From Bradyrhizobium sp. NDS-1 (GTDB lineage Bacteria; Pseudomonadota; Alphaproteobacteria; Rhizobiales; Xanthobacteraceae), in NCBI RefSeq assembly GCF_032918005.1, contig NZ_CP136628.1, positions 3,209,501 through 3,273,500 on the forward strand: DNA of 64,000 nucleotides, given 5' to 3'. Both the position numbers and the translations under genes were made by a program. Below are positions 53,381 to 55,521 of this stretch, piece by piece (position 1 is the first letter of the stretch; every line of letters begins with the position of its first letter). Below the pieces are notes generated by a model. That model did not search any database and was not told where the DNA came from. It saw nothing but the letters and a program-made list of their open reading frames with translations.

Positions 53381-53747
53381 TGCGCGATCGCGCGCTCCGG
53401 TCCTGCGAAAGGCAAGCGCCTCCGGTCCGATTTGTTGGGAACCGGCGTTTGCGACGCTTCCGTTGCGATCTCCGGGATGGCGGGGCTGCATTCCCCCTGT
53501 CACAAACTCCGCCCTGTCGCCGGAGGTGACTTCCAAGCCTCTAGAAGAATGTTTCGACGAAGCTCGCGGTCATCCGGGTTTCGGGAGTTGCGCGATTCGC
53601 AATCAATTCGACCGCCTGCCGGACCAAATGCAATTTGATCCGTCGTGGCGCTGGATTGTGACAAACCCTCGTCAGGGCTGGGTGCGTCGATCACGCATCC
53701 GACCTACGACTGTCCTTTACACGCAGCTCCAGCTATATGCTGTCGCT

Positions 53748-53765
53748 CTGTCATTCAACTGTCAT
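53748..53765 (+). promoter_or_regulatory. Perfect Pho box (PhoB binding site)
   Basis: CTGTCAT-TCAA-CTGTCAT: two exact copies of the 7-bp PHO-box repeat with the standard 4-bp spacer. A weak AATGCT -10-like sequence begins 10 bp later (53775). It lies upstream of the GTG start of the CYTH-CHAD gene (53926) in the gap 53381-53925, which contains no other recognised feature. Confidence 0.8.
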
Positions 53766-53925
53766 GTTACCGAAAATGCTGAAGTCAGATGGAACACCGG
53801 CCCGCAAGCTCCCGGGCGCGCCGGATGGGAATCGTGCTCCAAAGGATGACAAGAGAACGCAAGTCGCCGCCGGCTTCCTGAGGCAAGTTGAGGACGGCGC
53901 GGAACCCGCGAACGTCGAGGGCGCT

Positions 53926-55521
53926 GTGAGTGATCAGACGCCATCGCAAGACGCGACACCCGCGCCAGCCCAGTCGGCCGCCGCCGCACGGCCCGCCGAT
54001 GAAATCGAGCTCAAGCTGATCGTCGATGCCGGTCGTATGGCGCATTTCAACGCCGCGCCTGTCATCGCGGCGCACGCGCGCAACAAGGGCTCGCGAAAGC
54101 ATCTCAAGTCGATCTATTACGACACGCCCGAACGCGCACTCCGGCGCAACGGCCTCAGCCTGCGCGTGCGCCAGAGCGGTGCGCGCTTCGTGCAGACCGT
54201 GAAGACCGAAATTGCCGACGATCCGCTGCGCCGTGGCGAGTGGGAGGCGAACGTGGCGTCGTTCGCGCCCGATCTCGCGCTGGCGATGCCCTTCATTCCG
54301 GAGAAGCTTCGCGGCTCTCTCGAAGCGCATCCGCTCGAAGCCGTCTTCACCGCCGACATCCATCGCCATGCGCGGATGATCGACCTGCCGACCGGCACGG
54401 TCGAAGTCGCGTTCGACCAGGGCGTGCTGACGGCCGGTGACCGCTCGATGCCGGTGAGCGAGATCGAGCTCGAACTCAAGAGCGGCAGCGCGAGCACCAT
54501 CTACGAGGTCGCCTTGCTCCTGGCGGAGCAGGGAGCGGTGAAGCCGTCGATCCGCAGCAAGTCGGCGCGCGGCTTCGACCTTGCGGCCGAGCTTGCGCCG
54601 GCGGCGCGTCGTCCGCGAAAACTTCGCCTCGATCCGTCGGTCACGCTTGACGAAGCCTTCGCGACGATCCTGCGCTCCTGCTTCCTTCATCTGCTGCAGT
54701 CGCGGCCGGCGGCCGAGGACGGCCGCAATCCGGAAGGCGTGCACCAGCTCCGCGTCTCGCTCCGCCGGCTGAGATCGGCGCTCGATCTGATGCAATCGGT
54801 CGGCGCGCTCAATGACCTCGATGCACTGCGCTCGGAAGCAAAATGGCTGGCGCAGGAATTGTCGGCTGCGCGCGACTGGGATGTCTTCCGCCTCGAGACC
54901 CTGCCGACGATCGCAAGGGCCTGTCCTTCGGTCGCCGGCTTCGATGCGCTCGATCGGGCCGCGGCCAAGCGCCAGTCCGAGGCCTATCGGAGGGCGCATC
55001 ATGCGCTCGACGATCGCCGCTGCGCTCTGTTCCTCATCGGCCTCGGTCACTGGATCGAGACGCGGGGATGGCGCAACGATGTTGCCGCCGAAGATCTCGG
55101 CCAGCTCGCCGAGCCCGCCGTCAATTTCGCACAGCGCATCCTGTCGGAGCAGCACGCCAAGGTGCTGAGGCGCGGCCGCCGCTTCAAATCGCTCACGACC
55201 CTGCAGTTGCACAGGGTTCGGCTCGCGACCAAGCGGCTGCGCTATCTCGGCGAATTCCTGCTGCCGCTGTATGAGGACCGCAAGTCCACGCGGCGCTTCT
55301 CGCGCCGGCTCGCTGGTCTGCAGGAGGAGCTCGGCGCCTTTAACGACATGGCGGTCACGGCCTCGCTGCTCGAGGGGCTCGATGTCGAGCCCGACAGCGC
55401 CATTGCCGCGGCGGCGATTGCCGGCTGGCAGGCGCGCGCATCCGTCGGCGTTCAGCCCGTCTTGCGAAGCACCTGGCGCGATTTCACCGGTGCGCGTGTG
55501 CCGTGGGCGTCTCAGGGCTGA
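53926..55521 (+). CDS. CYTH and CHAD domain protein, probable inorganic triphosphatase
   Basis: A 531-residue protein from GTG 53926, chosen because GAGG is 5 nt upstream and because the Pho box lies inside the longer upstream frame (an ATG at 53737 sits before the box). The CYTH domain (about 25-230) has the ExExK signature at Glu26-Glu28-Lys30, and K-T, R-G-E-W-E and E-I-E-L-E-L. The CHAD domain (about 245-520) is a helical bundle with H-Q-L-R-V-S-L-R-R-L-R and H-R-V-R-L-A-T-K-R-L-R-Y, the conserved His/Arg sets that bind polyphosphate. CYTH enzymes hydrolyse PPPi; CHAD proteins associate with polyP granules. Confidence 0.92.
   Translation: MSDQTPSQDATPAPAQSAAAARPADEIELKLIVDAGRMAHFNAAPVIAAHARNKGSRKHLKSIYYDTPERALRRNGLSLRVRQSGARFVQTVKTEIADDPLRRGEWEANVASFAPDLALAMPFIPEKLRGSLEAHPLEAVFTADIHRHARMIDLPTGTVEVAFDQGVLTAGDRSMPVSEIELELKSGSASTIYEVALLLAEQGAVKPSIRSKSARGFDLAAELAPAARRPRKLRLDPSVTLDEAFATILRSCFLHLLQSRPAAEDGRNPEGVHQLRVSLRRLRSALDLMQSVGALNDLDALRSEAKWLAQELSAARDWDVFRLETLPTIARACPSVAGFDALDRAAAKRQSEAYRRAHHALDDRRCALFLIGLGHWIETRGWRNDVAAEDLGQLAEPAVNFAQRILSEQHAKVLRRGRRFKSLTTLQLHRVRLATKRLRYLGEFLLPLYEDRKSTRRFSRRLAGLQEELGAFNDMAVTASLLEGLDVEPDSAIAAAAIAGWQARASVGVQPVLRSTWRDFTGARVPWASQG

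Follow-up and report, generated by a model that had tools for sequence, protein, structure and literature searches.

A conserved Pho box before a CYTH-CHAD gene of Bradyrhizobium and its predicted role in repression by PhoB

A Pho box and the CYTH-CHAD gene behind it

The window, that is, the whole stretch of 64,000 nucleotides of Bradyrhizobium sp. NDS-1 DNA that was analysed, contains a gene for a protein with a CYTH domain followed by a CHAD domain, ahead of which lies the 18-mer CTGTCATTCAACTGTCAT (Table 1). This element has the form expected in the control region of a Pho regulon gene, two CTGTCAT 7-nt repeats with a 4-nt spacer, and it matches that form with 0 mismatches, as the preliminary description had claimed. 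It is the sole exact match in the genome, a single contig of 7,645,890 bases in which ~0.06 exact sites would be expected by chance (14 fixed bases, both strands, uniform bases). Three other sites differ from it by 1 mismatch, one before pstS, one beside a DUF47-pit-like gene pair and one before an ornithine/lysine/arginine-decarboxylase-like gene, and when up to 3 mismatches are allowed the genome holds 329 sites, versus 109 with the pattern read backwards. These three 1-mismatch sites are kept across the loci of the genus that we read, so CTGTCAT-N4-CTGTCAT serves as a Pho box in these bacteria.

Table 1 Features of the locus, in window coordinates
Feature	Position	Strand	Basis
Weak -35-like element CTGTCC	53710..53715	+	17 nt before CTATAT; conserved columns
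Extended -10 element GCTATA	53732..53737	+	TATA at fixed offset in 62/64 loci; described B. japonicum -10 box
Predicted transcription start, ~±2 nt	53746	+	position of the -10 element only
Pho box CTGTCAT-TCAA-CTGTCAT, proposed PhoB operator	53748..53765	+	exact match, conserved in relatives
CYTH-CHAD gene, 581 aa, probable start ATG 53776	53776..55521	+	start evidence and domain matches
GTG, start in the preliminary description; at most secondary	53926..53928	+	codon counts in 60 relatives
CYTH (triphosphate tunnel metalloenzyme) domain	54001..54531	+	PF01928; match to 5a60 inorganic triphosphatase
CHAD (polyphosphate-binding) domain	54667..55371	+	PF05235; match to 6qv5 CHAD

Domain searches bore out the two-domain architecture read earlier from the translation, with E-values of 5.7e-17 for CYTH (PF01928) and 1.4e-49 for CHAD (PF05235), and the best solved relatives are 6qv5 for the CHAD domain and 5a60, the E. 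coli inorganic triphosphatase (E 8.7e-20). E76, E78, K80, K143, E155, D214, E229, E231, E233 and K262, among other residues, are retained in at least 59 of 60 sequences, so the protein has the composition of a YgiF-type enzyme, namely a CYTH domain with ExExK and tunnel residues and a C-terminal CHAD domain. It resembles Escherichia coli YgiF (PDB 5a60/5a61) in the order of CYTH/TTM and CHAD and in the conserved tunnel motifs, but differs from it in that its CHAD part is best matched by 6qv5 and in an extra N-terminal tail of ~75 residues. According to the available part of PMC6537752, YgiF degrades polyphosphate (polyP), and its activity is raised by the CHAD domain. The Bradyrhizobium gene probably encodes a short-chain polyphosphatase/inorganic triphosphatase that docks on polyP through its CHAD domain. 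We know of no phosphate control of ygiF.

The genome encodes PhoB, a PhoR-like kinase, PhoU and PstS within one 12-kb stretch, where the kinase gene lies upstream of pstS in the same direction and pstC, phoU and phoB share the cluster. PhoB reached 361 bits against TIGR02154 (cut-off 296), and PstS and PhoU also exceeded their cut-offs; the PhoR model gave 305 bits, under its cut-off of 334. The setting expected of a Pho regulon, a genome with PhoB and PhoR and the same box at pstS, is therefore present, with the PhoR match below cut-off.

Conservation of the box in the genus

To follow the box through relatives, 80 loci of the gene were gathered (our own included), of which 66 are distinct in sequence around the box; some of these come from close strains, and the 66 do not count as independent. 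In 62 of the 66 the box has no more than 2 mismatches (0 in 36, 1 in 19, 2 in 7), and it has decayed in four (L024, L061, L102 and L105), so that the comparison of orthologue upstream regions proposed in the preliminary description came out in favour of conservation. Of 50 named loci, 47 have a box with no more than 2 mismatches in the 400 bp ahead of the gene match, and control stretches of equal size, intragenic and further upstream (50 loci each) or downstream (49), never fell below 4 mismatches. Columns of the box carry 1.77 bits on average, and those lying 45-110 nt upstream of it 0.29 bits.

The nearest named loci, at most 98% identical, are from Bradyrhizobium, and a close orthologue occurs in 24 of 60 genomes of the genus; the gene is not universal. 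A distant Bradyrhizobium CYTH-CHAD clade of ~41% identity (L033-L038) carries, near a probable TTG start, a conserved TTGTCATgaaaCCTTCAT-like stretch of the form TTGTCAT-N4-CCTTCAT, with 3-4 mismatches in 6 of 6 loci. In 38-41%-identical relatives beyond the genus (L115, L118-L125) we found no box of at most 2 mismatches. A genome labelled as another genus (G133) has a close orthologue with an exact box (L113), in which match score, identity and box are those of L112. Separately, a 32%-identical CYTH-CHAD relative of another genus (L132) has a reversed Pho box with 1 mismatch ~150 nt upstream of the match. Conservation of the box holds for Bradyrhizobium.

Comparable elements were followed at other genes of the genus by taking the best 30 loci per comparison gene (genomes matched: 59, 58, 36 and 59 of 60); a contig end cut the flank in one locus each of pstS (L150), the decarboxylase-like gene (L208) and ppk (L255), leaving 29 of 30 readable in each case. 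The pair that we take to be DUF47 and pit (L040 / G000:C1:4693860), names that are presumptive in part, has a reversed Pho box 39-45 nt before its ATG with 0-3 mismatches in 30 of these best 30 loci. The box of the decarboxylase-like gene (L003 / G000:C1:5438787-5438852; L200-L229) lies ~43-46 nt before the probable ATG and is kept with at most 2 mismatches in all 29 readable loci of the best 30. The family matches of the DUF47-pit and decarboxylase-like genes are below NCBIfam cut-offs. In many loci, as judged by eye, the box of the decarboxylase-like gene is followed by an inverted repeat CGAATGTGC...GCACATTCG, and when four leaders were folded a strong hairpin appeared in two; a link of phosphate state to ornithine use through this box is possible. 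Before ppk (polyphosphate kinase), an ATGTCAT-N4-ACGTCAT element with 3 mismatches occurs in all 29 readable loci of the best 30, and this near-invariant ATGTCATCGAAACGTCAT lies 170-174 nt before the family match (L230-L259). ATGTCATCGAAACGTCAT is a likely Pho box overlooked by searches that demand the strict consensus.

Promoter layout and start codon

Rhizobial promoters have the consensus CTTGAC-N17-CTATAT, which served as our yardstick for promoter scoring. With L105 and L061 excluded from the column counts, 62 of 64 loci have a TATA 14 nt (±1) ahead of the box, compared with 1 in 17,550 positions elsewhere upstream, and in 45 of the 64 it forms part of a GCTATA at -16 to -11 relative to the box. 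The two loci that have no TATA, L024 and L102, both have a decayed box as well. The -35-like element reads CTATTC in 35 of 65 loci and CTGTTC in 10 of 65; it is weak, and a better match to CTTGAC has a spacer of 22 nt, beyond the normal range for a promoter, both of which count against repression by PhoB. GCTATA is described as an extended -10 box in promoters of Bradyrhizobium japonicum, one of which was mutated and bore out the GC extension, although the same authors note that such promoters might be read by RpoH too, a point that likewise counts against repression (PMC4842269, in the part available). We also considered the TATA as a third PhoB half-site and rejected this, since in the alignment it does not fit the 11-bp register ahead of the box.

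Given the usual distances from a -10 element, the transcript would begin at ~53746 and the box would span about +3 to +20 of it. The box lies 9 nt behind CTATAT and 10 nt before ATG 53776, which is the repressed layout of the orfA-pit type if the promoter is used as predicted. The layout of a PhoB-activated gene, with a -10 element ~10 nt behind the box and a start codon well downstream, is not found, as the start codon fills that place: with a gap of only 10 nt from box to ATG, a usual -10 element and transcription start would not fit behind the box. At pstS the arrangement is different. The box is of the same 18-bp type (1 mismatch) and in the same orientation as that of the CYTH-CHAD gene, and it is kept with at most 3 mismatches in all 29 readable loci of the best 30, but a -10 hexamer follows 10 nt behind it (TAAAAG, as in this genome, in 26 of 29 and TAAAAC in 3 of 29), the coding region starts ~90 nt behind it, and TATA at -14 occurs in 0 of 29. 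By this sequence layout pstS is an activator-type promoter. At the corresponding place behind the box, matches to TATAAT average 4.0 of 6 at pstS versus 0.49 of 6 at the CYTH-CHAD gene.

The preliminary description had placed the box inside the longest upstream frame, which indeed runs from 53737 to 55521, and had taken this to favour a downstream start at GTG 53926. The argument holds against ATG 53737, which we rejected because 14 of 66 loci have a stop codon immediately ahead of ATG 53776 and because of single-base variation in the spacing from box to ATG, but does not carry to the GTG, as ATG 53776, 10 nt behind the box, is better supported and is most likely the start. That choice rests on purifying selection on the codons behind this ATG, on four relatives that have no other start, and on 16 of 60 relatives in which the GTG place holds no start codon. 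In group 1 (49 sequences), dN/dS is 0.16 over codons 2-10 after ATG 53776, like the CYTH (0.16) and CHAD (0.17) domains, so these codons look translated; over codons 2-50 it is 0.36. The signal is weaker in group 2 (8 sequences), at 0.55 for codons 2-10 and 0.63 for codons 2-50. In L029, L030, L031 and L032, the boxes of which have 1-2 mismatches, the equivalent of ATG 53776 is the sole in-frame ATG/GTG/TTG.

ATG 53776 is invariant across the first 24 aligned loci and stands 10 nt from the box in 48 of 66 (7-11 nt in named loci with an intact box), and the frame from it extends to the CYTH motif in 62 of 66. In L105 the frame fails, as it does in L017, L058 and L077, where the stretch that leads from the ATG to the CYTH domain has single-base changes in length; these are either assembly errors or a sign that a downstream start is used. 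The codon at the place of GTG 53926 is GTG in 43 relatives, ATG in 1 and a non-start codon in 16, and use of the GTG as a secondary start is possible. The Shine-Dalgarno sequence before ATG 53776 is poor, and GTG 53926, with GAGGG a few bases upstream, has the better-looking ribosome site. A leaderless mRNA beginning at ATG 53776 was rejected, as in the alignment its -10 element would overlap the second repeat.

Predicted repression by PhoB and its bearing on polyphosphate

The arrangement of GCTATA promoter, box and ATG 53776 makes it fairly probable, in our estimate, that PhoB represses the CYTH-CHAD gene in phosphate starvation, a prediction drawn mainly from this order of elements rather than from the orfA-pit precedent. 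The mRNA would begin at ~53746 from the GCTATA promoter and be translated from ATG 53776; when phosphate is scarce, PhoR would phosphorylate PhoB, and PhoB-P would bind the box and block RNA polymerase, such that phosphate-rich cells would produce the protein and starved cells would not. The link between box and phosphate proposed in the preliminary description is thus upheld in so far as a conserved PhoB-type site precedes a polyP-related gene, whereas the induction by starvation that it implied is doubtful, because the box follows a conserved -10 element, the place expected of an operator. It had also held that a transcription start upstream of the box would speak against the box; we predict just such a start, which would mean that the box serves repression, not that it is a false site. 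Retention of GCTATA, ATG and an open gene in L061, where the first repeat is lost, counts in favour of repression.

As described in the available part of PMC3131613, orfA-pit of Sinorhizobium meliloti is repressed on Pi starvation and differs from most PhoB-regulated genes in a box that closely precedes the putative start of translation. The likeness lies in this position of the box and in a phosphate-metabolism gene as target. The genes differ, however, and the DUF47-pit-like box of Bradyrhizobium is reversed and ~40 nt (39-45 nt) before the ATG, unlike the forward CYTH-CHAD box at 10 nt, a difference that counts against repression. In the same available text, a heterologous test with E. coli PhoB links Pho boxes near the translation start of rosR in Rhizobium leguminosarum to stimulation, so a box near a start is not always a repressor site. 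In Streptomyces lividans, to judge from the available part of PMC8003754, the CHAD-domain polyP protein PptA, a phosin, is likewise under phosphate control, but pptA is activated by PhoP in starvation and forms an operon with ppk, whereas here the protein is CYTH-CHAD and the predicted sign is repression. The activation of pptA would, on this comparison, count against repression of the CYTH-CHAD gene.

Textbook activation by PhoB, with a -10 element ~10 nt behind the box, a transcript from ~53788 and translation from GTG 53926, is in our view unlikely. It would account for the perfect box in the orientation seen at pstS, for the GTG, which is found in 43 of 60 relatives and is preceded by GAGGG in the window, and for the three relatives with single-base length changes before the GTG place, and the rosR stimulation reported in the available part of PMC3131613 also speaks for it. 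Against these points, a -10-like hexamer is absent behind the box, codons 2-10 after ATG 53776 look translated, the GTG place has no start codon in 16 of 60 relatives, and L029-L032 have no in-frame start besides the ATG even though their boxes have 1-2 mismatches. We hold it somewhat less probable still that control is dual, with PhoB blocking the upstream promoter that yields the long protein from ATG 53776 and firing a second one that yields a short protein from GTG 53926, which would switch isoforms with phosphate; both start codons do occur in 43 of 60 relatives, but against this reading stand the lack of a conserved second -10 element and the 16 relatives that have no start at the GTG place. 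Lastly, that PhoB binding is inert or weak here, or that another regulator uses the box, is improbable given the information content of the box columns and their near-fixed spacing to TATA and ATG, despite the box having decayed in four loci and the many transcriptionally inert intragenic sites reported for E. coli PhoB (PMC10294691, in the part available).

Returning to repression by PhoB, both PhoB-repressed genes and phosphate-controlled CHAD genes are already known, the latter from Streptomyces, where they are activated (PMC8003754, in the part available). Among the papers listed in our literature searches (in one case 25 of 645), none showed a polyP hydrolase of the CYTH-CHAD kind under direct control by PhoB, which is weak evidence of absence; the available text of PMC8829014, PMC5127829 and PMC11208175 makes no mention of CHAD ('chad' being an author's name there). 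For the gene itself, the likely start codon of the protein is corrected, and a CYTH-CHAD gene is placed under a predicted PhoB operator with a predicted sign, repression, that is unexpected.

Bradyrhizobium is a genus used as crop inoculant, and a build-up of polyP with an active Pho response has long been known in bacteria. With the polyphosphatase off while Pst uptake is on, incoming phosphate would be banked as polyP. As a tentative extension, one that we think possible rather than probable, PhoB in starvation may turn on uptake through pstS, act on ppk via its box-like element and shut off the CHAD-docked polyphosphatase, so that polyP would be both built and protected. If true, polyP accumulation would be tied to PhoB directly through the DNA, by an operator on the polyphosphatase gene itself.
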